Source: Geosporobacter ferrireducens (GTDB lineage Bacteria; Bacillota; Clostridia; Peptostreptococcales; Thermotaleaceae). Taken from it: DNA of 64,000 bases. The stretch covers positions 930,001 through 994,000 of the forward strand of contig NZ_CP017269.1 of assembly GCF_001750685.1 (NCBI RefSeq). The letters are read 5' to 3'. A program made the translations under genes and the position numbers. The notes below the pieces were generated by a model. It was not told where the DNA came from. It saw only the letters and a program-made list of their open reading frames with translations, and ran no database searches. This document shows, in pieces, positions 4,951-62,341 of the stretch (positions are counted from its first letter, which is position 1; each line of letters starts with the position of its first letter).

Positions 4951-5508
4951 CTACAAACCGCTTTTTATTACTAATGGCTTCTTTGCATCAATAATTAATG
5001 AAATCATCCTTAACTTCTCAACTGAGTTCCTTGTATCAAATCTAAATGATCTTCCAATCTTGCCATCAGCTTCATTCCAATATATATAATGAAAGTCACC
5101 ATAATCATCACAATATTCAAGTAATTTGACTTCAAATCCTACATTTTCAAACACACTCGCAAAAGTTTCCCAATCATAAACAATCTTATGGGTTGCTGCT
5201 GGATGGTCAGTTGGTCCAGGCCCCCCAACCTGTACCATGTTTTGATACCATTCATTTCTGAAATTCTTGTCCGGTACCGCACATCTTAAATATCCACCGG
5301 GTTTCAAGTACGCATAACAATTCTTTGCTGCTTCAATCCCTTGTTCAAGCGTAAGATGTTCCCACACATGTTCAGCCAAAAAAGCATCTACACTCTCCGG
5401 TAAAAACATTCTTTTCCAGTCATCTATTGAAAGAAGATTTAATTCACTTTCTTGTGTTGCCATCCATCCATCAAATCTTGTTTGCCCTGCGCCCAATATA
5501 ACTTTCAA
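4951..5508 (-). CDS. SAM-dependent methyltransferase (COG4627-like)
   Basis: The protein has 185 residues. It begins at a TTG preceded by a GGGGG ribosome binding site. MKVILGAGQTRFDGW corresponds to SAM-binding motif I of small class I methyltransferases, with the acidic residue of motif II near LLSIDDWK. HVWEHLT and LKPGGYLRCAVPD are motifs IV-VI. The size and the EHVWEHL sequence match the group of predicted methyltransferases acting on unknown, possibly cell-surface, substrates. No partner gene is near. Single minus-strand unit within the cassette-like block. Confidence 0.85.
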   Translation of the reverse strand: MKVILGAGQTRFDGWMATQESELNLLSIDDWKRMFLPESVDAFLAEHVWEHLTLEQGIEAAKNCYAYLKPGGYLRCAVPDKNFRNEWYQNMVQVGGPGPTDHPAATHKIVYDWETFASVFENVGFEVKLLEYCDDYGDFHYIYWNEADGKIGRSFRFDTRNSVEKLRMISLIIDAKKPLVIKSGL

Positions 5509-7737: not shown

Positions 7738-8256
7738 TCAAATATAACGTCTTACTTTATTCATATATTTTATATATTCTTCTCCAAATTTCCTAATACA
7801 CCATCTTTCTTCTGAAAGAATAATCCAGTGTGCTGATATTTGAAAACTTATTAATAACACAAGCAATACCCATGAACGAGTTAAAAACACACACCCTAAG
7901 AAATATATAAAATATGCAACGTACATAGGGTTGCGTGATACTTGATATAACCCATTTAAATTTATTCCGTTCATTTTAGGCTTAGCATAATTTACTATAG
8001 ATACAGCATACAAAATAAGCCCTAAACTATATATTATCAGACCTACGTAAAACCACACAGAGTCAGTTTTGATCTTGAGTAGTAATAAATATAGTAAGAT
8101 AAAGGCGGTTGTAATTTGATAAACCCAGAATGCTACCTTTTCTCTTCCAACTAACGGAGCAAAGAAACTTGCACGTTTAAGTGCTTCTTTGTTTATCACA
8201 TTTAAAAGACCATACCTAATAAGAATAATTGGTATCACTATCAAAAACGCATTCAT
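7738..8256 (-). CDS. Isoprenylcysteine carboxyl methyltransferase-like membrane protein
   Basis: The protein has 172 residues with about five membrane segments. The C-terminal half contains GLYQVSRNPMYVAYFIYFLG and EERWCIRKFGEEYIKYMNKVRRY, the signature of the ICMT/PEMT family in which the RNP motif and the EE...F...Y residues bind SAM (family knowledge). It probably methylates a small or lipid substrate at the membrane. The gene starts right at the edge of the attC-like element D, as a cassette gene would. Confidence 0.88.
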   Translation of the reverse strand: MNAFLIVIPIILIRYGLLNVINKEALKRASFFAPLVGREKVAFWVYQITTAFILLYLLLLKIKTDSVWFYVGLIIYSLGLILYAVSIVNYAKPKMNGINLNGLYQVSRNPMYVAYFIYFLGCVFLTRSWVLLVLLISFQISAHWIILSEERWCIRKFGEEYIKYMNKVRRYI

Positions 8257-8337
8257 TTTATCCTCTCTTTAGCTTCTTAATTTGTAACTTTTGTTTTTCA
8301 TCCACACCAGGACGGCGCAGCCTTTGCACGATATGTC

Positions 8338-8511
8338 GTAGACCGTCCTGCAATTCCCGACGCCTTCGAACTGGACCCCAAAGGAATACTCCCTTGGCGG
8401 TGCTTGCACCCAGTGAGAAGGTGTGGTGCTGACCTTGCTCTGTGACGGTGCCTACAGAGACTCTCTTCTTGACCGTGCATCTTGCATCCTTGTGGGAATG
8501 GCTTGTTATGT
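8338..8511 (-). other. attC-like site D (family 2)
   Basis: The element lies 96 bp beyond the nitroreductase stop. Its right end reads GTTATGT and its L box GGGAATGGC pairs with GCAATTCCC on the left. The left R box is degenerate. Internal blocks (CCTTCGAAC, CCAAAGGAAT, CCAGTGAGAAGGT) are shared with sites E, F and G, which makes it a family-2 site. Confidence 0.6.
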
Positions 8512-8606
8512 ACTGTCCGCTATCTCTATCCTATTGAAAAAATTAAGCCTTTTATTTTCTAATTTATTAACTGTATATATTTTTTCATAATGCAAACTAA
8601 ATATTG

Positions 8607-9146
8607 CTACCAACTTTCTTTATGTACGATTTCCTCCAGTTTTTTGCGTGGACGTGCACTCGGCATTTCGTCACTATACCCAACAGTGAGAATGCTAACA
8701 ACATATTTGTCAGAAGGGATATTTAAAATTGGTCTAATTTCTTCTTGAGTAAACCATGCCACCCAGCAAGTCCCTAAGCCTAAATTCTCAGCTTCAAGCA
8801 CAATATGCTCTATTGCAATTGTTGTATCTCTTATTATCTGTTTCAGTTCCTGATGGGGACTACTCTCATCAATTGATACATCAATATCTTCTTTTATTCT
8901 AGAGCGCATATCTGCAACACATACAATGAAAACTGGGGCAGAAAGCATCCAGTTTTGATTATGTGATACTTCACTTAGTTTTTGCCTATTTAACTCTGAT
9001 TTTACTATAATGAAATGCCAAGGCTGTGTATTGCTACCAGAAGGTGCCAATCTCGCACTCTCTAGTAGCTGAACTATTTTTTCCTCTTCTACTGGTTTAT
9101 TAACATATTTTCTTATGCTTCTTCGTGTTTGTATTTGTTTAAGCAT
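8607..9146 (-). CDS. Nitroreductase family protein
   Basis: The protein has 179 residues. IQTRRSIRKYVNKPV at residues 5-19 and ARLAPSGSNTQPWHFIIV at 33-50 are the FMN-binding signature; GLGTCWVAWF and SILTVGYSDEMP complete the fold. These flavoproteins reduce nitro groups, quinones or halogenated compounds with NAD(P)H. The ATG follows AGGGGGAT. A clear attC-like site (D) follows the stop, so gene plus site form a typical cassette. Confidence 0.92.
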   Translation of the reverse strand: MLKQIQTRRSIRKYVNKPVEEEKIVQLLESARLAPSGSNTQPWHFIIVKSELNRQKLSEVSHNQNWMLSAPVFIVCVADMRSRIKEDIDVSIDESSPHQELKQIIRDTTIAIEHIVLEAENLGLGTCWVAWFTQEEIRPILNIPSDKYVVSILTVGYSDEMPSARPRKKLEEIVHKESW

Positions 9147-9311
9147 ACTTAAATATCCCCCTAAATCTGATTATTTTAACTCTATTTACTTAAAGTATAG
9201 TACTTTCATAATATATATCCTTAACTTCAAATTTGCACTTTCAATCTAATATTACTATTTTTTTCAAATCTGCTTTTACCTACTGCCTCCACTTTCTTTA
9301 ATAAGGATGGC

Positions 9312-9442
9312 ACATAACGTCCTCGCACTCAAGACGTTTCTCAGCCTTAGATAGCTCCTATCTTAGGCTGAGGAATGTGCTTTGGCTTCTTCGAAGGCTT
9401 GACCCAAACAAAGCCAAAGCGAACTTGAGTGCATTGTTATAT
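9312..9442 (-). other. attC-like site A (family 1)
   Basis: The 131-bp imperfect palindrome starts ACATAAC and ends GTTATAT. Behind these, L boxes GCACTCAAG and CTTGAGTGC pair exactly, leaving unpaired spacers (GTCCTC and ATT) as in real attC sites. The centre holds CTCAGCCTTAGATAG/CTATCTTAGGCTGAG and GCTTTGGCTTC. It is about 75% identical along its length with site B at 49182 and partly repeated at 13774. It lies 77 bp after the VOC gene stop. Confidence 0.8.
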
Positions 9443-9518
9443 GATGGAAAAGACGGAAGCCGCCAATAGACAACAATTTTGAGATTACTCACCATTACTA
9501 ACAACATCTTTTTTGATT

Positions 9519-9977
9519 TTACTTTTTCCAATTTTGGATCTCAATGAAATTACCTTCTGGATCAGTTACATAAACTGCTGTTAATATTCCAATCTCTCCA
9601 TAATCTTTCTTTATAACTTCTCCTAATTGACTTCCACCATATGCTAATATTATTTTTAAAATTTCTTCTACTGAATCTACATGAAAAGCTATATGTCCAA
9701 ACCCTTTTCGATTAATATAGTTTATATCTGTATCAATAGATTCCGGAGAATACTCAAAAATCTCTAATGTTGGACCGTTATCAAATCCAAGTAAGCTTAA
9801 GTGAATTCCACGTACTTTCACATCAGGAATTCCAGTTAATTTGTCTATCCAATTCCCAGATAAATCTCTTTCAGGAGGTACCGGTTTGCAATTAAGTACC
9901 TGTATGTAAAAGTCAGCTAATTTCTTCCAATCCTTTGCAATTAAATTAGTATGGACATATTTAATATTATTTGCCAT
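9519..9977 (-). CDS. VOC (glyoxalase/bleomycin resistance-like) family protein
   Basis: The protein is about 152 residues from an ATG at 9977, which follows GTGAGTGGGG; an ATG five codons upstream overlaps that site. IKYVHTNLIAKDWKKLADFY opens the first beta-alpha-beta-beta-beta module and GHIAFHVDSVEEIL with DPEGNFIEIQNW the second. The His and Glu residues at the usual metal positions are present. The family includes lyases, dioxygenases and drug-binding proteins; the function here is not known. Followed by attC-like site A. Confidence 0.88.
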   Translation of the reverse strand: MANNIKYVHTNLIAKDWKKLADFYIQVLNCKPVPPERDLSGNWIDKLTGIPDVKVRGIHLSLLGFDNGPTLEIFEYSPESIDTDINYINRKGFGHIAFHVDSVEEILKIILAYGGSQLGEVIKKDYGEIGILTAVYVTDPEGNFIEIQNWKK

Positions 9978-10073
9978 AACAACCCCACTCACTTTCTATT
10001 TCCAGTATATCTGCTTATTACTTGAGGCTTACCGCCAGCGGAAATTTTCTAGTCTTTTCTGTCATATAACTAT

Positions 10074-10115
10074 TGGATTCGCGAACCCATCCCATAGTTC
10101 GCTTTATAGTTATAA
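10074..10115 (-). other. Short attC-like site Q
   Basis: ATATAAC at the left and GTTATAA at the right enclose GCGAAC/GTTCGC arms. The site is only 42 bp. The right half and the DNA beyond recur at 13613. Confidence 0.4.
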
Positions 10116-10184
10116 TCTGGTGGTATTTGCGAATATGGTTCGGAAATACCACCTATAAATAATACTTATACCTACAATACTTGA
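10097..10184. repeat. Dispersed repeat module A (copy 1)
   Basis: About 85 bp (TTCGCTTTATAGTTATAATC through TTATACCTAC) are repeated almost exactly at 13613-13691, with a shorter piece at 11452-11480. The middle forms a hairpin: GGTGGTATTT pairs with AAATACCACC. Confidence 0.7.
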
Positions 10185-10199
10185 AGAGCACTACAATTT

Positions 10200-10440
10200 C
10201 TACTTATTCAACAGGGTGTCTAAAAGACTTTTTATTCTGCGCAAGCTAACATTTGATACATGGGATACACCTCTGTCGTTTTAGAGCTCTCACGACCTAA
10301 CAGTTCCTGTTCAAATTATTCTACATTTTGCTGCTATTCCCTTCAATTTGATACATTTTTTTACAATCTATCCCAATGCTTCCACTTTTATTGTTTTTAC
10401 AAGACAAGAGGGCAGGGTTTGTCAGTTCATGAAAGTATTT
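10200..10440 (-). pseudogene. Tyrosine recombinase C-terminus, decayed (copy 1)
   Basis: On the minus strand the frame reads EQELLGRESSKTTEVY and, after a one-base deletion, the ending SPLDTLLNK-like before a TAG at 10200. ELLGHESS and VYTHVS are the second His box and the tyrosine nucleophile region of XerD-like recombinases. The DNA to about 10440 is shared with the copies at 17733, 20350 and 50135, but no longer reads as protein. No start or N-terminal domain is left. Confidence 0.6.
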
Positions 10441-10445
10441 ATCCT

Positions 10446-10478
10446 ATAGGCAAGTGGGGACAGTCCCCACTTGCCTAT
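10446..10478. repeat. Perfect 33-bp palindromic hairpin
   Basis: ATAGGCAAGTGGGGAC and its exact complement GTCCCCACTTGCCTAT flank a single A. Degenerate versions of the same sequence occur near 6750 and 35550. It could be a bidirectional terminator or a REP-type repeat. Confidence 0.6.
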
Positions 10479-10536
10479 GTGGCTTCGATTACTAACGATG
10501 TTAGAAACCTAATCAGTCAGACTGTTTTCAGTCTAC

Positions 10537-11238
10537 TTATTTATATACTCCTCTATAATTCTCAGGTAATAATTCTCCTATTTTCTTCATTATATATTTT
10601 GTGGCAAAATCTTCATACTCTTTTTTATCTTGCTCTTTTTCTCTTTTGGGAAATTCAAATTGTTTTCCAATTTTGATATAAACATCTGCGTAATTAAAGG
10701 TTTCCGCACTCATATCTCCTTCTTTATTTATAGGTAATAGTTTTTCTGTCCCATATAATCCAATAGGTACAATAGGAGCTCCTGTCATTCTTGCTATAAG
10801 AAAGATTCCTTTCTTTGCCTCTATCAAACTACCAACTCTACTTCTAGTTCCTTCTGGGAAAATCAATAAACTTTCACCTTGGTTAACAAGCGTAATAATT
10901 TTCTTAAGACCCTCTTTATCAGAAGTTTCAGGTTTTATATTTGTAGTCTTTATCACATTAAGCCCTATACTTGTAACAGCATTATTTGACAGCTTTACAC
11001 CTGCTACAAAAGTTGGATCAATCTCCTTTAAAGCCTTGTCTAAAACTAATCCATCAGAATTGCTTAAATGATTACATATAAAAATAGTTGGTGTTTTTAT
11101 TCCCTTTAAGTTTTCACTTCCCTCTATGTTTATATTTGCATATTTTTCCAGGTATTTATCAACAGCTTTTTTAGATATGTATGTGCCAAATTTATCCGGT
11201 AAAATATTTATAATTTTTGCCGTTATAGTAGATATCAT
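10537..11238 (-). CDS. Lysophospholipid acyltransferase (PlsC-like)
   Basis: The protein is about 233 residues. ICNHLSNSDGLVL has the catalytic HX4D motif and FPEGTRSR is motif III, which binds the glycerol phosphate; VPIGLYG is motif IV. It should acylate 1-acyl-glycerol-3-phosphate in the inner leaflet of the membrane. I chose the ATG at 11238 because AGGAGGAG lies just ahead of it; an upstream ATG adds 17 unlikely residues. It lies alone on the minus strand inside the cassette-like block. Confidence 0.9.
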   Translation of the reverse strand: MISTITAKIINILPDKFGTYISKKAVDKYLEKYANINIEGSENLKGIKTPTIFICNHLSNSDGLVLDKALKEIDPTFVAGVKLSNNAVTSIGLNVIKTTNIKPETSDKEGLKKIITLVNQGESLLIFPEGTRSRVGSLIEAKKGIFLIARMTGAPIVPIGLYGTEKLLPINKEGDMSAETFNYADVYIKIGKQFEFPKREKEQDKKEYEDFATKYIMKKIGELLPENYRGVYK

Positions 11239-11640
11239 TTGCTTACTCCTCCTGAATGTTTCTATACTTGAAATTATGTATTGAAACACCTAAAATGTCT
11301 AACAGTAATTCCTACTAATTTAGGTGACCCCAATTTGCGAAATTGATACAAGACTTAATTAGCTCCCAACTAAATACTATAGACCCAAGAAAACAGCTCT
11401 GAAATGAATAGGCAATTGTATATAACTTTCAGACTTCCTGACATCACTGTGTCGCAAATACCACCTATACAAGCTTATTATATACCTAAATGGTATTATC
11501 TTACATATAAATTTTTATCTAACACCTATTCCCTAAAGAACAATTTAGAAACTTGTTGTTTATATAAAGCATGTAAACGAATGGATCGTTTTTGTGCCTA
11601 TAATATATTAAAACGGGGTTTTATACCTATTATTTAGTTC
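11239..11640. other. Non-coding stretch built from repeat pieces
   Basis: Contains a fragment of module A (CGCAAATACCACCTATA near 11453-11470) and a block at 11485-11560 shared with 2062-2137 upstream of permease copy 2. I see no gene. Confidence 0.5.
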
Positions 11641-11689
11641 CCTTCTCCATAGCATTTCTAATGTCACTCTAGTATCGTAACAAAAGACA

Positions 11690-12058
11690 ATGGCTGTATC
11701 CACTGTAGTAACGATACTAGGTGTTTATAGCGGTTTTAAAGAGGTTGATGGGGATAAAATAAAAATGCTGCAGACTTTCGGTGCCACCAGATTGCAGATA
11801 CTACAGAAAGTCATCATTCCTGCAAGTATTCCGACCATTGTCAGTGCCGTAAAGATCAATGCAGGTCTTTCCTGGGTAGGGGTTATCGTTGGAGAGCTGA
11901 TGGTGTCCCGGGCTGGTATCGGATACCTCATTGTCTATGGCAGCCAGGTATTTAGATTAGACCTTGTTATGACCAGTGTGATCATCCTAGCTATTTTGGC
12001 TACAGTCATGTACCAAGGGGTTGCTTATTTAGAAAAGAAATTAATAAAATGGAGATAG
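11690..12058 (+). pseudogene. Truncated ABC transporter permease, C-terminal half (copy 4)
   Basis: 122 residues, nearly identical to copy 3 at 4197 and beginning in the same palindrome (GTATCGT...ACGATAC). It covers the EAA loop (TFGATRLQILQ) through the last membrane segment. The ATG lacks a ribosome binding site and no partner ATPase is present. Among the copies this one, its terminator and the small convergent gene that follows make up the most complete unit. Confidence 0.75.
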
Positions 12059-20679: not shown

Positions 20680-20702
20680 AAATTAATGAAATGGAGATAA
20701 TT
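20680..20702 (+). pseudogene. ABC permease remnant, last eight codons (copy 5)
   Basis: Only the final codons (KLMKWR-like, ATTAATGAAATGGAGATAA) remain, immediately before the conserved terminator. About 170 bp to the left (AAAAAAGCCGTTTAACAC onward) match 50348-50450. Confidence 0.6.
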
Positions 20703-20736
20703 GAGTAGAGGCTGCTTTTTTAAGCAGCCTCTACTC
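20703..20736 (+). terminator. Strong hairpin after permease copy 5
   Basis: GAGTAGAGGCTGC and GCAGCCTCTACTC form a 13-bp stem around a T-rich loop; the longest version of the repeat-borne terminator. Confidence 0.75.
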
Positions 20737-20830
20737 AGTTTAAGCAAACTATATTCATAACGGCGAATTTATTGACTAAAGGCATTATTTAATACGACAA
20801 TCGAAGCGTCCCCATATCTTCCATGTCTTC

Positions 20831-49181: not shown

Positions 49182-49311
49182 GCCTAACGTCCCCGCACTC
49201 AAGATGTTTCTCAGCCTTAGATAACTCTTATCTTGGGCTGAGAAATTTGCTTTGCCTTCTTCGAAGATATTACCCCAAACAGCCAAAGTGAACTTGAGTG
49301 CATTGTTAGGC
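49182..49311 (-). other. attC-like site B (family 1), the most canonical site
   Basis: Left R box GCCTAAC and right R box GTTAGGC are the exact integron consensus and complementary to one another. L boxes GCACTCAAG and CTTGAGTGC are inner arms with unpaired CGTCCCC/ATT spacers. The centre folds through CTCAGCC/GGCTGAG and GCTTTG/CAAAG pieces. Length 130 bp. It is homologous to site A. It lies 93 bp beyond the stop of the lipoprotein gene. Confidence 0.85.
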
Positions 49312-53762: not shown

Positions 53763-53858
53763 ATTATAATATAGTTCGTTTTAGTTGTCAACGATATGTC
53801 GGTAATTCTTTTATTGGTATTTTGTTATACTTTTTAAAAAAGTGTTAAGAGGTGTATT

Positions 53859-54098
53859 ATGACTATAAAAAAGGCAATTTCTCAAAGAATATTGCAACTA
53901 TGTGAGGAAAATAATATAACTCTAAATAAACTATCTACAATGGCGGGTATAACCCAATCAACTCTCAACGATGTTGTCCATGGCAAAAGCAAAAATCCTA
54001 CTGTTAAGACCATATATTACATTTGCTTTGGTTTAGGGATTGAGATGAAAGATTTCTTTGACTCTGATTTATTTCATAACTTAACTGATAATGACTAG
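53859..54098 (+). CDS. XRE family transcriptional regulator
   Basis: The protein has 79 residues and is nearly only a helix-turn-helix: ILQLCEENNITLNKLSTMAGITQSTLNDVVHGKSKNPT. It is divergent from the AbgT/M20 operon and probably represses it. The gene starts after AAGAGGTG. Confidence 0.9.
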   Translation: MTIKKAISQRILQLCEENNITLNKLSTMAGITQSTLNDVVHGKSKNPTVKTIYYICFGLGIEMKDFFDSDLFHNLTDND

Positions 54099-54100
54099 AA

Positions 54101-54464
54101 AAAACAGGTATAACTGAGGCTGGTTTGTCACGACATGAAAATAATCTTAGAGAACCAAAAGCTGAAATAGTAACTAAAATTTCACGGGCTTTAGGCTGCT
54201 CTACTGATTATCTTTTAGGGAGTATCGATGTGAAAAATCAGATTGTATTACAGAAAGGCAGTTTAGAAAAAAAATAATATTAATTATAGAAATTATAAAG
54301 AAATCGAAAATAAACTCTTAAGAAGGCTTATAGATGAGAAGATTATTCATGAAGAAGAACCTCTTTCTGAAGAAGCATTGGACAAGATCATCAAATACGG
54401 CGTTGACGCAGCTGTGGAAATACTGAGACTGAAAAAAATGCACCAAAATAATAAGCCTGACTAG
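54101..54464 (+). pseudogene. Second XRE regulator, truncated and frameshifted
   Basis: Two frames make one protein: TGITEAGLSRHENNLREPKA with SRALGCSTDYLLG (HTH part lacking its first helices) and, after a break near 54277, NYKEIENKLLRRLIDEKIIH with DKIIKYGVDAAVEILRL to a TAG at 54464. The missing start and the shift show that it is dead. Confidence 0.65.
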
Positions 54465-54503
54465 GAAACAATTAGATCAAGTACCTATCGCCTATAGCTT
54501 TTT

Positions 54504-54578
54504 GAACGGTGCCCGATTTGCTAGACGCACAGGAGTCATTACCTAATTCTTGTGTGTCTAGCAAATCGGGCATCGTTC
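54504..54578. repeat. 75-bp long hairpin, copy 1
   Basis: A 28-bp stem (GAACGGTGCCCGATTTG and so on; two G-T wobbles) closes a 19-base loop holding ATTACCTAATTCT. It lies between the XRE remnant and the PHP gene, so it may also terminate both. Copy 2, inverted, is at 58391. Confidence 0.8.
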
Positions 54579-54580
54579 AG

Positions 54581-55495
54581 TCATTTATCTATGTCTAAGA
54601 TAAAGTACTTTTTCAAACTACTTATTAACTCATTCTCGGAAATTAAACACCCATGTTGTCCTAATGAAATGGTAGGTTTTGTTTTTCCGTGAAAATCACT
54701 TCCGCAAGTAACAAATAGTTTAAAATCCTTAGCCTCTCTAAAAAAATGAAAAGCTTGTGATGGTGTATGGTAACTACTAAAAGCTTCTATTCCATCTATT
54801 CCTGTACATATAAGGGGATGTAACAGATCGTAATGATCTTTCAGGTTTACATTTGGATGTGCCAAGACCGCTTTCCCGCCATTTCGGTGAATAATATTTA
54901 CTACGTCTTCTAAAGGAGGGTACTCAATTTTAACATAACAAGATTTCCCCTGTGAATAATAGTCCCAATAAAAATTAACATAGGGATTATTGCTTTTTAC
55001 ACCACCTGAACGATAAGGACGTAATAATGGATGATTATTGTATTCAGGCTTATTCAGTAATACTTCGGCAAACATCTCACCGGTCCAACTTCCCTGCCAA
55101 AAATTATTCTTTGAAACTTCCCACATATCATTTTCTGTTATGCGAAAACCTAACGCTTGAGTTTCCGCAAGCATTTTCAAAGAAGCATCAAAGCTTTGAT
55201 CATCAATATTTTTTTCAATTCTAACAAAGTCACTATTCTGATAGTCAATATCATAGCCAAGTACATGAAAATTTTTGTTTTGGAAAACGCAATCAATTTC
55301 TATACCGGGAATATAACTAATTCCCTTTTTCTTAGCTGCCCTTTGTGCTTCAGCATTTGCCCGAACCGTATTATGATCTGTAATAGACATAGCCTGAATA
55401 CCACTTGCAACACATTTCTCCACCAACTCTGTTGGTGTGAATTCACCATCATCGCTGTACCTACTGTGCATATGTAAATCAATCGAATTATTCAT
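54581..55495 (-). CDS. PHP-domain phosphoesterase
   Basis: The protein has 304 residues. The metal-binding PHP motifs are present: DLHMHSRYSDDGEFTPTEL, SITDHNTV, PGIEIDC, AVLAHPNV and TCGSDFHG. It should be a trinuclear-metal phosphoesterase or 3'-5' nuclease of the YciV/RNase AM type. It overlaps the MFS transporter gene by eight bases, so both are cotranscribed, perhaps using one substrate. Confidence 0.9.
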   Translation of the reverse strand: MNNSIDLHMHSRYSDDGEFTPTELVEKCVASGIQAMSITDHNTVRANAEAQRAAKKKGISYIPGIEIDCVFQNKNFHVLGYDIDYQNSDFVRIEKNIDDQSFDASLKMLAETQALGFRITENDMWEVSKNNFWQGSWTGEMFAEVLLNKPEYNNHPLLRPYRSGGVKSNNPYVNFYWDYYSQGKSCYVKIEYPPLEDVVNIIHRNGGKAVLAHPNVNLKDHYDLLHPLICTGIDGIEAFSSYHTPSQAFHFFREAKDFKLFVTCGSDFHGKTKPTISLGQHGCLISENELISSLKKYFILDIDK

Positions 55496-56669
55496 TTACT
55501 GTCCTCCTATCTGAATGAGACTTGCGGTTACAATATTCAATCAGTAAAATCATTGCGACAGTAAACATCAACTGAAACAGCGGGAAAATTGTAATACTGA
55601 TTTTCTCGGTTAATAATCCAATCAAGGGAGGAGAAAAGGTGCTACCAATGTAGGCACACGCCATCTGTAAGCCCATCATCGATTGAGAAGCATTTTTACC
55701 AAAGCGTTCCGGAGTCTGATGCAATAAGCTAGGATAGATTGGCGCACAACCAAGGCCAATCAATATCAGTCCGGTAGACATGACTGTGCGATTTATAGAA
55801 ACAAATAATAATGCTACACCAAGTATTATCAGTCCCTGTCCTAACCGTATCATACCTTTCGTATTTAATTTTAAGGTAAGTAGTCCACTAAGAAAGCGTC
55901 CTCCTGTAATACCGAGATAAAACAAAGAAATGAACGAAGCTGCAGCCTCTGAAGTAATACCTTTTTTCAAGACCATATAACTGCTTCCCCACAACCCTGT
56001 CACCTGTTCTAAAGAGCAGTAGCAAAACAAAGCAATTAAAGTCTGCTTGGCACCGGGGAGTCCGATAAGCTGTTTGTATTTTAAAGACGAAGAGGCATTA
56101 TGTTTATCTTCCTTTTGGTCAAGGTTCTTTTTCCACAATGGCAGCGAAAAAAGAAGTATTGCAGTTAAAGCAATCTGGATCAAAGAAATCGTGCGATAAC
56201 CATAATGCCAGCCTAAATTCCCTGTTAAACTTACCCCCATAATATAGGGACCAAGGGTAGCGCCTATACCCCAGAAACAATGAAGCCAGCTCATGTGCTT
56301 TGCTTTATAGTGCAACGCAACAAAGTTATTCAACACGGCATCTACTGAACCTGCTCCTAATCCATAGGGAACGGCCCATATACATAGCGATACAAATGCA
56401 TGTGAAATAGAAAAGCCAAACAGCGCCGTTGCCGTCGTTCCCACGCTGATAGCTGTTATCCATCCTGTCCCAATTTTTCGGACTAACCGATCACTCAGTA
56501 AACTGGAAATGATAGTACACCCAGCTATAATCATAGATATGATTCCAGCATATGATATTGGCACTTTAAGTCCTAAATACATACTAGGCCAGGCAGAGCC
56601 TAGAAGAGAATCCGGCAGCCCTAGACTGATAAAAGTAATATAGATAATTACAAGCAATAATTGAAACAT
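55488..56669 (-). CDS. MFS transporter
   Basis: The protein has 393 residues and 12 membrane segments. The loop between helices 2 and 3 (SSLLSDRLVRKIGTG) is the MFS motif A region, and the second half has the related GGRFLSGLLTLKL. Resembles sugar-type FucP/YfkF-like MFS carriers; the substrate is unknown. Divergent from the AraC regulator, which probably controls it. Confidence 0.9.
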   Translation of the reverse strand: MFQLLLVIIYITFISLGLPDSLLGSAWPSMYLGLKVPISYAGIISMIIAGCTIISSLLSDRLVRKIGTGWITAISVGTTATALFGFSISHAFVSLCIWAVPYGLGAGSVDAVLNNFVALHYKAKHMSWLHCFWGIGATLGPYIMGVSLTGNLGWHYGYRTISLIQIALTAILLFSLPLWKKNLDQKEDKHNASSSLKYKQLIGLPGAKQTLIALFCYCSLEQVTGLWGSSYMVLKKGITSEAAASFISLFYLGITGGRFLSGLLTLKLNTKGMIRLGQGLIILGVALLFVSINRTVMSTGLILIGLGCAPIYPSLLHQTPERFGKNASQSMMGLQMACAYIGSTFSPPLIGLLTEKISITIFPLFQLMFTVAMILLIEYCNRKSHSDRRTVNE

Positions 56670-56779
56670 CTTTTTCTCCTTACGTTTTATTTTTTATTAT
56701 AATAATATCGTCTTAATAATCTTGATACAATTAGATTTTGGACGTATAATATAAGAATATCGACAAAGGAGATATTCGT

Positions 56780-57673
56780 ATGGCACTTCAAAAATGCGGA
56801 TTAAACCTTAACAGGAATGGAAGGGAGCTTCAGCCACATGGTACATTTGATTTTCCATGTGCCGGATATTGTTCACAACATACAGAAAGTGCTGACGACG
56901 TTATCCCATGGCATTGGCATGAGGAAATGGAGATTATATATTTGCTGTCGGGTCAACTGAAACTGAAAGTACCAGGAAAGACATTTCGCTTACAACAAGG
57001 CGAAGCTATTTTTATTAACTCCAATATATTGCATTTTGCAGCAGCAGAAATGCATTGTGAGATTCATTCTTTGGTTTTTCACCCTACTCTTATCACTGGC
57101 CAAGATAAATCTGTATTCGCTCAGAAATATATCACTCCCCTTGTCAATTGTGTGGCTCTTGACAGCTGCCACATAGCTCTTGCTTTTAATTGGGGAAAAA
57201 ATATAATAACTGATTTTATTCATACATTTGAAGCGATCGCTTTCGAACCAACAGGATATGAATTTACAATCAGAGAGAATTTATCGCATATATGCCTCAC
57301 TCTGTATCAGCAATATGAGCAAGAAATAAAAAAGTGGAATACCGAACTTAATCAAGATAGCACCCGCATTCGAAAAATGCTGGACTTTATACATGAACAT
57401 TATTCAGAAGACTTGACATTGGCACAAATTGCAAAATCGGCAGATATAGGAGAACGCGAATGTCTACGATGTTTCCAGCGAGGAATACAGATTTCTCCCA
57501 TACAGTACTTAATAAAATATCGGGTGATGCAGGGCGCTACTATGCTTTTGCAAACTCCCAACAGTAGTATTTCAGAAATTTCCATTCAATGTGGTTTTGA
57601 CAGTCCCAGTAATTTTTCACAAATGTTTAAACGTTTTTTTAAATGTACTCCCAGAAATTATAGAAAACGATAA
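56780..57673 (+). CDS. AraC family transcriptional regulator
   Basis: The protein has 297 residues. An N-terminal cupin sensing domain (PWHWHEEMEIIYLLSGQLKL) is followed by two HTH motifs ending FDSPSNFSQMFKRFFKCTPRNYR, the AraC/XylS signature. Likely activates the divergent MFS/PHP operon in response to a small molecule. The ATG follows AAAGGAGAT. Confidence 0.92.
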   Translation: MALQKCGLNLNRNGRELQPHGTFDFPCAGYCSQHTESADDVIPWHWHEEMEIIYLLSGQLKLKVPGKTFRLQQGEAIFINSNILHFAAAEMHCEIHSLVFHPTLITGQDKSVFAQKYITPLVNCVALDSCHIALAFNWGKNIITDFIHTFEAIAFEPTGYEFTIRENLSHICLTLYQQYEQEIKKWNTELNQDSTRIRKMLDFIHEHYSEDLTLAQIAKSADIGERECLRCFQRGIQISPIQYLIKYRVMQGATMLLQTPNSSISEISIQCGFDSPSNFSQMFKRFFKCTPRNYRKR

Positions 57674-57722
57674 AAATGAATTTATATATCAAAATGGTTG
57701 TGTATTCGCTGTGAATTATACA

Positions 57723-58217
57723 TTAACCGATTTCCTTTCCCATATACACAACACTAAAATACTTATTAAACTTCTTTCCTATATTTTTGAGCCGACCATA
57801 TTCAACAAACCCATTTTTCTCATGAAATTTAATACTGCAGATATTCTCTGATGAAATATCTGCTAATAATTTTTTGATACCTCTTTTTTTCGCTTCAACT
57901 TCAAGTTTTTCTAAGGCAAGAGTACCAACCCCTTTACCCGTATAATCAGGATGAATAAAATACATTATTTCAGCTACTTCTGAAAATGTAGAATAAGACC
58001 CATAAGGTTCTAATAAGCAAAACCCAACAACTCCATTTTGACTATTTTTAATAGCGTATCCACAATGAACCTCTGAATCGTCTATAAATTTTAGAAAATG
58101 TTCATTTTTAACAGCTTCTTCTCTATAAGCAGCAAATGTTTCTTCAATATAATAGTTTAAAATGCTAACAACAGCTTCTTGATGTTCAAGTTTTAAATTT
58201 TCAAATGTAAAGTTCAT
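57723..58217 (-). CDS. GNAT family N-acetyltransferase (phosphinothricin-type)
   Basis: The protein has 164 residues. MYFIHPDYTGKGVGTLALEKL includes the acetyl-CoA-binding loop GKGVG, and SSENICSIKFHEKNGFVEYG is the terminal motif usual in Pat/YwnH-like acetyltransferases. Convergent with the AraC gene. The ATG follows AGGAGGAAT. Confidence 0.9.
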   Translation of the reverse strand: MNFTFENLKLEHQEAVVSILNYYIEETFAAYREEAVKNEHFLKFIDDSEVHCGYAIKNSQNGVVGFCLLEPYGSYSTFSEVAEIMYFIHPDYTGKGVGTLALEKLEVEAKKRGIKKLLADISSENICSIKFHEKNGFVEYGRLKNIGKKFNKYFSVVYMGKEIG

Positions 58218-58390
58218 TAAATATTCCTCCTATTGAATTGATATTTTTATTTGGAACCGCGGGCGTATTTAACAGTTATATTATCCCACATATACAATTA
58301 TTTGGATATGAAATAAACAATTTAAATTATTTACTACATATAGACACAATTTTTCAGATGCATGTCCTGTCTCTAAGTTCTCAGAGTTCT

Positions 58391-58465
58391 GAACTATGCC
58401 CGATTTTCCGGACACACAAGAATTAGGTAATAAGTTCTGTGTTCCCGGAAAATCGGGCATAGTTC
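58391..58465. repeat. 75-bp long hairpin, copy 2 (inverted)
   Basis: Same length, same loop (here AGAATTAGGTAAT) and same stem skeleton TGCCCGATTT as copy 1 in reverse orientation. Stem bases differ from copy 1 at several paired positions (CTAG to CCGG, GG to TA) but keep pairing. Confidence 0.8.
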
Positions 58466-58520
58466 ACCTGCTTGTAATCATAACGAAATTTCCAATCCCT
58501 ACAAGAGCTGCTACAATATT

Positions 58521-58607: not shown

Positions 58608-59975
58608 CTACTTACTCTTCAAGTTTATAATTATTTTGCCATCATTGACTTCAAACAAATTATTCTTTCTTCTCATTGTTATCGTATTATCCCGAACTAA
58701 ATAGCCTGATTTAAACACTGAAAGCATTATTCCAATTAGAATCATATTTATTATTGTACCTGTTGTATCATAAGAAATAAGTGGCAACGTCAGTGGAGAA
58801 TATAGTGGAAACCCTAAATTAAATACTACATAAAGTACAACCTGAATTGTAAAAGTTATCAAAACAGATGTAGATACCAATTTTCCCAAAACACTTTTTT
58901 GCTTAGAACAAAGCCTTAAAAAACGAATGATTAATGTCAAAATAACTGTCATTATGATAATAAACGAAATCCAGCCAAACTCATGAATTAAATATGTTAA
59001 CAAACTATTAGTATGTATTTGCGGCAATACCGCTTTAACGCCATTAGAATACGTCAATTCTCCTTGGTCAAAAAATTTAGCTCCTTTAATTATATCTTTT
59101 ATTATTGCTCCTAAATATCCTCCACCCATCGGATCGAGAGACGGATTAAAAGCATGTCGTAGTCTGTTCAAACGATAAGGTTTAGAAATATATATATAAA
59201 TATTAGTCATCGCTATAATAACAGTTGGTATGTAAACCAGCAACATCGCTTTTAACTTATTGACATAAAACCATCCCTTTAAAATAGCTAATGTTATTAA
59301 TATAAGGCAAGCCACCGAATATAAAATGGCGCTTGATAAACTTGGGATAAGCCTACCTATAAATATAGGTACAACTACATACCCTCCGCTCAAAATAATT
59401 CCCAGGTACCCTTTAGATCTCATGCTGTAAATTATTCCTGCAAAAGCTGTTGGAAAAAGCAATAATATAAACTCAACATGCTGATATCGTCCATTGACCG
59501 CCGGCGATACGATCATAATTCCAATTGTTATGGCAAGAATACTAAAATAGAAGGCTCTAGGGTATTTCCCTATAGTTGTAAAATCTAAAAAATAGACAAT
59601 TATCATACATCCTATACCGAGTATTATGCTAATGATACTCTTATTCAGTATCCACTGCATATCAAAATCATAGCTAATAAATATTCTAATAGCAAGCCCC
59701 ATCAAAAGTGTAATACCAGTTAATATAATTATGCTCCATTCAATTTTGGGTCTATGGGTTCTATCGAATTCTGATCCAACAAGAATTGGGTCCCCCATCT
59801 CCGCTATTGCTCTTTCTGTTGCTGTTTCTTCATCTAATCCATTAACTACAAATGCATTCTTTTGATCAATAATATGATCTTCAATTTCTTTTGAAATGAC
59901 CTCATGGGCCTTTTTCCATCTTATTTGCTCACAAACAGCCTTTAGGTACTCACTTATTTTACTAGATTGTTTCAA
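58608..59975 (-). CDS. FtsW/RodA/SpoVE-like membrane protein with N-terminal HAAS domain
   Basis: The protein has 455 residues. The first 80 (HEVISKEIEDHIIDQKNAFV, ATERAIAEMGDPILVG) are the permease-prefix (HAAS) domain seen in proteins encoded with PadR regulators. Ten to eleven membrane segments follow with LPLISYDTTGTI near the end, the site of PxxSYGG in FtsW/RodA glycosyltransferases. A role in peptidoglycan polymerisation is possible, but the YDTTG variation makes activity unsure. The PadR gene upstream overlaps by 14 bases. Confidence 0.85.
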   Translation of the reverse strand: MKQSSKISEYLKAVCEQIRWKKAHEVISKEIEDHIIDQKNAFVVNGLDEETATERAIAEMGDPILVGSEFDRTHRPKIEWSIIILTGITLLMGLAIRIFISYDFDMQWILNKSIISIILGIGCMIIVYFLDFTTIGKYPRAFYFSILAITIGIMIVSPAVNGRYQHVEFILLLFPTAFAGIIYSMRSKGYLGIILSGGYVVVPIFIGRLIPSLSSAILYSVACLILITLAILKGWFYVNKLKAMLLVYIPTVIIAMTNIYIYISKPYRLNRLRHAFNPSLDPMGGGYLGAIIKDIIKGAKFFDQGELTYSNGVKAVLPQIHTNSLLTYLIHEFGWISFIIIMTVILTLIIRFLRLCSKQKSVLGKLVSTSVLITFTIQVVLYVVFNLGFPLYSPLTLPLISYDTTGTIINMILIGIMLSVFKSGYLVRDNTITMRRKNNLFEVNDGKIIINLKSK

Positions 59976-60309
59976 AATTTTTACCTCCTTGCAAAACCTG
60001 ATTAACAGCAGAAATATAAGCTTGCCATTCGTTTTTTTTCTCAGAGAGCATTCCCTTGCCTTTTTTGGTGATGCTATAATATTTTCTCACCCTTGCACTA
60101 TCTACATTTTCCTCATAAGAGCTTATCATTTCCTGCTCCTCGAGGGTATGCAACAAGGGATAAAGTGTCCCCGCCTTTAACGAAAATGTATTATCTGATC
60201 TTTTTGCAAGTTCTTCAATCATCTGATATCCATACATATCCTGATCTTCAAGTAATTTTAATATCAGCATTGTTGTGCTACCGGTCAGCAAACTTTTGTT
60301 AATAGTCAT
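59962..60309 (-). CDS. PadR family transcriptional regulator
   Basis: The protein has 115 residues. A winged HTH (MLILKLLEDQDMYGYQMIEELAKRS) and KAGTLYPLLHTLEEQEMIS, then RKYYSITKKGKGML, are the PadR signature. It regulates the FtsW-like gene that follows it. A long inverted repeat lies 17 bp upstream. Confidence 0.93.
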   Translation of the reverse strand: MTINKSLLTGSTTMLILKLLEDQDMYGYQMIEELAKRSDNTFSLKAGTLYPLLHTLEEQEMISSYEENVDSARVRKYYSITKKGKGMLSEKKNEWQAYISAVNQVLQGGKNFETI

Positions 60310-60325: not shown

Positions 60326-60374
60326 TATATATAGATGATCTATATATAAATTATATGTAGATCATCTATATATG
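60326..60374. promoter_or_regulatory. Inverted-repeat operator upstream of padR
   Basis: TATATATAGATGATCTA (60326) is repeated as its complement TAGATCATCTATATATG (60358) around a 15-bp AT spacer. Position just before the PadR gene suggests autoregulation. Confidence 0.65.
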
Positions 60375-61782: not shown

Positions 61783-62341
61783 TTTTTCTCCTCCCCCTTA
61801 TTTTATATTATTATTGACATCTGTGGATCTAGAAAACAGGAGCTAATATTGTTTCAGATACTACTCTTCCAAAACAACTAAACTGAATCATTATAATATT
61901 CTAATTATAATATAACAGAAATAGTAAACGTAATATAGGTACTCCTGAACAAAATAACCTGGTAATAAAAAACTTACAGAACACCCCCATACCGCCTTCC
62001 TTTTATCATACTAAAAGTCGAAATATAGTAAATTTGATATGGTTCCGCATACACTCTATTACCACGACAAGGGGACAGTTCTCGATTGTCGCAAAATACT
62101 CCTAAATAAAGAAAAGTACGGCAATTAAGAACTGTACCCCTGTCGCACTTGTTTTTTTGAAATTTTATAACTGTTCTAAAATATGAGTGTATATGATACT
62201 GACTTAGATCGCTGTTATCCTTTGAGCAGTCATTTTCATTTTGTCGATTGAAATTGCTTATCACCATTAAATGATATTTGTTTTCATCACATCTTTTTGT
62301 AATTGCAATTTTATGATAAACTCTTTATGAAAAATATCTAT
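61783..62341. other. Intergenic region with a REP-like hairpin
   Basis: Apart from the hairpin at 62065-62145, this 560-bp gap holds only AT-rich DNA; a 97-codon frame here shows no coding pattern. Confidence 0.5.
62065..62145. repeat. REP-like long imperfect hairpin
   Basis: CGACAAGGGGACAGTTCTCG pairs with its near complement (AAGAACTGTACCCCTGTCG) over about 26 bp. The shape resembles repeats mobilised by IS200/REP-associated tyrosine transposases; none is present nearby. Confidence 0.55.

Follow-up and report, generated by a model that had tools for sequence, protein, structure and literature searches.

Two inverted 77-bp palindromes with covarying stems flank four genes in Geosporobacter ferrireducens

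Within a 64,000-nucleotide stretch of the Geosporobacter ferrireducens genome (contig NZ_CP017269.1, positions 930,001 to 994,000; hereafter the window), two homologous hairpins, A and B, lie in opposite orientation on either side of a segment that carries PHP, MFS, AraC and GNAT genes. Their stems have diverged while remaining paired, only two copies were found, and a gene block that extends inward from hairpin A occurs in a bacterium of another family without either hairpin. An original prediction, made from the DNA letters, had proposed that the hairpins are the ends of a transposable unit or belong to a bifunctional terminator family. We see it as close to an even call that A and B are instead two copies of a small extragenic palindrome, resembling a miniature inverted-repeat transposable element (MITE) or a REPIN, that are located at the 3' sides of genes in one lineage.

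Results

Two homologous palindromes keep their symmetry

The two elements are as follows.

54503-54579, plus strand: hairpin A, a 77-bp palindrome with 32 pairs (three of them G-T) and its loop strand, TTACCTAATTCT, on the plus strand.
58390-58466, minus strand: hairpin B, the inverted second copy, identical to A at 62 of 77 bases and forming 30 of 32 pairs.

Each hairpin has 32 stem positions and a 13-nt loop, and the copies have in common ATTACCTAATTCT, which runs through the loop into the upper end of the 3' arm. The predicted arrangement, an inverted pair with a conserved loop bracketing a segment of ~4 kb, was confirmed, with the copies on opposite strands. The predicted limits, 54504-58465, were accurate to within 1-2 bp and the hairpins are indeed equal in length, but the proposed dimensions of 75 bp with a 28-bp stem were too small. 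Homology between A and B is sharply bounded: both end in TGAAC...GTTCA, and beyond these ends the flanks are unrelated. When hairpins were ranked over 464 kb, consisting of the 64-kb window and a 400-kb sample of 20 stretches from the same genome, A and B took the first two places among 55 hairpins above the score threshold. Both are extragenic and adjoin gene 3' ends. Hairpin A lies between convergent reading frames, 38 bp past the end of the last frame on its XRE side (54464) and 1 bp from the stop codon of the PHP gene. Hairpin B is found between the GNAT gene (which starts at 58217, minus strand) and an FtsW/RodA-like gene (which ends at 58608, minus strand).

Comparison of the two stems showed that 23 of 32 pairs are identical. 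Among the nine that differ, four are altered on both sides yet still Watson-Crick, three are altered on one side with a standard pair kept (G-T in one copy), and two are broken in hairpin B. When the 13 stem changes were placed at random in 200,000 simulations, the mean was 0.42 compensated pairs, against the 4 observed (P(>=4) = 9e-5). Folded as DNA, the hairpins have z-scores of -10.0 to -12.9, and 0 of 200 shuffles were equally stable for either strand of either copy. Judged from these two copies, symmetry has been kept while the letters changed, and the earlier observation that paired stem changes remain complementary was borne out. The original prediction had gone on to conclude that the structure is under selection. 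The hairpin structure is conserved, but selection is unproven from two sequences, because replication template switching, according to PMC8794818, can also create perfect stems and multibase compensatory changes.

Template switching leads to a further explanation, which we regard as quite unlikely: A and B could be an inert palindrome produced by a replication accident, which left an inverted copy nearby and whose symmetry is maintained by template switching, with neither function nor transposition. The finding of only two copies, close together and inverted, fits such an origin, as does the described ability of template switching to yield compensated stems. However, conservation covers the loop and closing bases in addition to the stem, which arm-to-arm correction alone does not explain. 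Moreover, no flanking sequence was copied along with the hairpins, and long palindromes are prone to loss.

Only two copies were found

BLAST searches and a covariance model of the hairpin pair (R1) found only A and B in the 5.8-Mb genome (two contigs), each matched on both strands because it is a palindrome. A covariance-model scan of the genome had been suggested together with the original prediction; it matched these two hairpins alone, and the scatter of copies at 3' ends of genes that would have refuted the mobile reading was not seen. A genome-wide terminator or repeat family was rejected on the copy number. Outside its own genome, R1 had no match among 2 genomes of the genus, 16 of the family, 391 of the class and 393 of the order (own genome included), the class and order sets being samples that were filtered more strictly. 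By chance alone, a second copy would fall within 3.9 kb with a probability of ~0.0014, a value computed after the pair had been seen; A and B are therefore probably linked, either through local copying or because they belong together.

Looser searches within the genome gave little else. At up to one mismatch, a 14-base loop pattern occurs at four places, namely the two hairpins and two others without an R1 match. In the 400-kb sample, R1 gave one weak match that we did not count (L137, 15.8 bits, E 0.33), and an unfiltered scan of the window found other short hairpins, the best with 23.1 bits (20702-20737), which we took as background. A pattern for the hairpin ends, with up to two mismatches, matched 11 times in the genome, comprising the four hairpin arms and seven sites with 1-2 mismatches; the reversed control pattern matched five times.

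Searches in other collections were made with patterns for the stem and the loop. Over contigs of GTDB genomes, the stem pattern found 11 stretches, seven from one Chlamydiales metagenome-assembled genome (MAG) with TGCCCTTGCCC-type simple arms and four from other phyla. R1 matched five of the 11 at E<=0.1: L099, from a Saprospiraceae MAG, scored best (54.7 bits), followed by L089 (38.0), L090 (31.9), L091 (27.0) and L096 (25.1). The loop TTACCTAATTCT was seen in none of the 11 on inspection by eye. We did not count these stretches as relatives, since they had been picked for their stem letters, so that the R1 scores are not independent, and lack the loop. In viral contigs, the loop pattern found 79 stretches, none of which forms a hairpin in the expected register (at most 20 of 32 pairs, as against 32 and 30 in the controls) or is matched by R1 at E<=0.1, and the stem pattern found none. 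A shorter stem pattern yielded 100 viral stretches, and scanning of 80 gave six R1 matches at E<=0.1 in four loci; these were likewise not counted, the best reaching 22.5 bits with a shorter middle part. Plasmids contained a single 21-bp match to the hairpin (E 0.8) and phages none. Among the papers listed by literature searches, judged by title and the start of the abstract and made without the element's letters as a query, none was recognisably about the 77-bp element.

A three-gene block in another family lacks both hairpins

Pfam confirmed the gene labels given to the four genes between the hairpins. Three of them lie in a block that is shared with G448, a genome of the same order but another family.

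54576-57716: shared block, 93.3% nucleotide identity with G448.
54581-55495, minus strand: PHP-domain protein (PF02811), in the shared block, 93.8% amino acid identity in G448.
55488-56669, minus strand: MFS transporter (PF07690), in the shared block, 91.3% amino acid identity in G448.
56780-57673, plus strand: cupin/AraC-family regulator (PF12833, PF02311), in the shared block, 93.9% amino acid identity in G448.
57723-58217, minus strand: GNAT acetyltransferase (PF00583), between the hairpins and outside the shared block.

The block is the single alignment between the window and the 16.6-kb G448 locus L197, where it occupies 8567-11709. On the left it overlaps the final 4 nt of hairpin A and starts 5 bp from the stop codon of PHP; on the right it reaches 57716, stopping shortly before the GNAT gene and leaving 674 bp to hairpin B. 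Neither the GNAT nor the FtsW-like protein had a tblastn match in L197 at 1e-5. Both hairpins are absent from the locus as well: the best unfiltered R1 score there was 16.9 bits, compared with 103.5 for A and 100.1 for B. In L197, a decayed RAYT-like gene (7822-8453; tblastn pieces at 7849-8411, minus strand) lies between REP-like repeats (REP, repetitive extragenic palindromic), ~110 bp to the left of the shared block.

The MFS protein has a relative in G448 that is 91% identical, but at E<=1e-40 it had no match in 15 other genomes of its own family, nor in G001, the other species of the genus searched, with at most four candidates scored per genome. This distribution, together with 93% nucleotide identity across families, argues that PHP-MFS-AraC is evidently a unit that was transferred horizontally between two families of one order. 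Identity at third codon positions, 94% for PHP and 91% for AraC, suggests that the transfer was fairly recent. Outside the G. ferrireducens genome we collected 29 MFS loci from 28 genomes, mostly of ~4 kb. An AraC relative stands beside MFS in five of them (L168-L171 and L176), and PHP is present too only in the G448 locus L168, although the shorter loci would not reveal a PHP gene lying past their flank. Longer stretches from two of the same genomes (L198 and L199) contain AraC and lack PHP. Plasmids carry only short pieces of the MFS region (67-73% identity, three records), their PHP (25 records) and GNAT (1,308 records) relatives are all below 60%, and PHP had no match in viral contigs. A PHP paralogue with 43% identity is located at C1:5290843; by eye, none of the frames listed around it encodes MFS or AraC.

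These boundaries bear on the proposal that A and B are inverted ends, recognised as single strands, of a 3,964-bp element carrying PHP, MFS, AraC and GNAT and moved by an enzyme supplied in trans. In its favor, exactly two copies were found, inverted and close together, PHP-MFS-AraC has evidently passed from one family to another, and the left edge of the block coincides with the inner edge of A. This last agreement carries less weight than it might seem to, since only 116 bp separate the last XRE-side frame (54464) from the PHP gene (54581) and A takes up 77 of them. On the right side, the block stops at 57716, before the GNAT gene and B, and there is no hairpin at either end in G448. The DNA shared across families is therefore the three-gene block rather than the hairpin-bracketed interval, a comparison of boundaries that rests on the one relative. 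The four genes include none that Pfam identifies as a transposase, no target-site duplication was found as a direct repeat of 3-10 bp next to A, B or the interval as a whole, and there is no other full copy in the genome. The G448 boundary disfavors a cargo transposon, and the reading of A and B as ends of a transposable unit, put forward in the original prediction, now appears very unlikely. We give still less credence to a variant in which the whole palindromes would serve as recognition units at the folded single-stranded ends of a trans-mobilised cargo element, which would have captured GNAT alongside an already mobile PHP-MFS-AraC, with G448 holding the block as it was before capture.

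A short match lies to the left of the block in both genomes.

54467-54481, plus strand: 15-nt stretch common to the window and G448 (14 of 15; L197 8520-8534), left of the block.

This stretch starts 36 bp to the left of A in the window and 47 bp to the left of the block in G448, and shuffling gave P values of 0.003-0.007. A shared 12-mer or longer was present in 2 of 2,373 random 100x100-bp pairs, a test chosen after the 12-mer had been seen. The match hints that an older 3' spacer may continue to the left of A, in which case A would be either a gain in its own lineage or a loss in G448. The shared 12-mer would fit a hairpin that was inserted into, or replaced part of, this older spacer. Farther to the left, 53838-54464 encodes a short repressor of the XRE type (HTH_26), after which come two pieces, out of frame, that by eye resemble a decayed second repressor.

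Hairpin placement and folding as RNA

A role in RNA is a possibility that we consider unlikely, though not negligible: a stable hairpin at the RNA 3' end, or an insulator, could protect or end the transcripts of the inward-reading flanking genes. The placement of the hairpins suits this role. Read on the loop strand, each lies 3' of an inward-reading frame, the XRE-side frames for A and the FtsW-like gene for B, and the frames around A converge. RNA folding energies range from -47.6 to -59.0 kcal/mol. The non-Watson-Crick pairs on the loop strands of both copies are mostly G-T (five G-T, one A-C and one A-G), a weak hint that the loop strand is the one that folds. However, the two strands of B are equally stable when folded (-47.6 and -49.1), and neither copy is followed by a T-tract on either strand. 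A terminator scan called nothing at A or B, a weak test in which the loop limit of 3-8 could have excluded hairpins with 13-nt loops, and Rfam 15 had 0 matches in the window at the gathering score. With only two copies and no T-tract, the bifunctional terminator family of the original prediction was not upheld.

Y1 transposases and REP-type repeats in the genome

The G. ferrireducens genome has 15 matches to Y1_Tnp (PF01797; IS200-like), 12 of them over the cut-off, and several of these genes have GGGACGGTTCTC-type repeats around them. IS200-like/Y1 enzymes make no target-site duplications, so the lack of such a duplication around the hairpins is not decisive. According to PMC6006769, Y1 enzymes act on folded single strands, and REPs carry the tetranucleotide GTAG or GTGG at a distance of 0-2 nt on the 5' side of the hairpin; classes 2.6 and 3 are described there as lacking this foot, and the GT[AG]G rule is therefore not absolute. 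By eye, no GT[AG]G foot is present on either strand in the 10-nt flanks of A (TATAGCTTTT / GTCATTTATC) or B (CTCAGAGTTC / CCTGCTTGTA). REPINs are described in PMC3116915 as inverted REP doublets that form hairpins and are linked to RAYT transposases. A and B do not belong with REPs or REPINs on copy number, the GT[AG]G foot or a cognate RAYT. Unusual ends do exist, since PMC3733652 describes RAYT genes flanked by long terminal inverted repeats unrelated to GTAG repeats.

Other palindromes in and near the window

Several other palindromes were noted. Two related GGGGACAGTTCTCGATTGTCGC-type hairpins, at 62065-62145 in the window and at 5302-5372 in the sampled stretch L125, are similar to repeats around some of the genome's own RAYT genes. 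Hairpin TTTCTCAGCCTTAGATA occurs in two copies of the same orientation (9334-9378 and 49207-49245), with none in the 400-kb sample at up to two mismatches. A third type, TATAATAGAAAAGTAAAACTTTCCTATTATA, was seen only in the two sampled stretches adjoining the window (L124 5254-5302 and 8462-8514; L125 10262-10313). Finally, a palindrome with 23-bp arms at 60327-60373 overlaps a promoter-like site (TTGACA-17-TATAAT, 12 of 12) just upstream of a PadR-family gene (59962-60309), and is possibly the operator of that gene.

Discussion

We tentatively favor a model in which a 77-bp non-coding palindrome with TGAAC...GTTCA ends was copied by some transposase. The enzyme would have acted in trans, and the copies may have arisen by transposition as folded single strands. 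Copy A would be an insertion into the 3' spacer of the PHP-MFS-AraC block, a set of three genes that evidently moved independently from one bacterial family to another. Copy B lies 3.9 kb away, inverted and beyond the GNAT gene, which does not belong to the block. Because Y1 enzymes act on folded single strands without target duplication, a small palindrome copied in trans is the most economical account, and the hairpin-free block in G448 supports it.

Several results count against this model. No transposase with matching ends was found with the end pattern (up to two mismatches) across the genome, a search in which the seven sites outside the hairpin arms were not followed further. The hairpin arms are unlike the sequences around RAYT genes, with a best shared piece of 11 bases, and R1 found no copy at E<=0.1 in 15 loci of ~3 kb each around the PF01797 matches. 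Two copies are also very few for a MITE or REPIN. In addition, beyond the shared 12-mer the spacer leading up to the block shows no alignment (P = 0.54), so that insertion into a known empty site is unproven.

A and B are a real and unusual pair, and most likely represent an ordinary to mildly interesting small palindromic element. An inverted, covarying hairpin pair around genes is insufficient for calling a transposon, because here the boundary of the shared DNA, in the one relative, disagrees on the right side. Should the pair prove to be a young palindromic element with two copies, it would show such a family close to its birth, a rare sight, in a genome already rich in IS200-like transposase genes.

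Among known systems, an intrinsic (bidirectional) terminator has a stable hairpin next to a stop codon, as A and B do, one of them between convergent reading frames. Its G+C-rich stem, though, leads into a T-tract; A and B have no T-tract, and theirs is a 32-position stem with a 13-nt loop. Integron attC core sites have ends unlike those of A and B, and this, with the opposite orientation of the copies, led us to set them aside without a formal test. In a mobile insertion cassette, two inverted ends enclose ordinary genes and no transposase. The A/B interval has this organisation, but its ends are 77-bp palindromes with which the evidently moved gene block does not coincide; a second locus with the same hairpin-ended unit was not found, the one close relative, G448, having 54576-57716 only. 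REPINs differ from A and B in their many copies, GT[AG]G foot and accompanying RAYT, where A and B have two copies and neither feature. The likeness to REPINs lies in the short, extragenic inverted-repeat hairpin, the absence of target duplication and a host genome rich in Y1_Tnp/RAYT genes. Compared with MITEs, A and B lack a target duplication, a parent transposase with the same ends among those found, and a larger copy number; like MITEs, they are short, non-coding, palindromic and sharply bounded repeats that lie next to genes.

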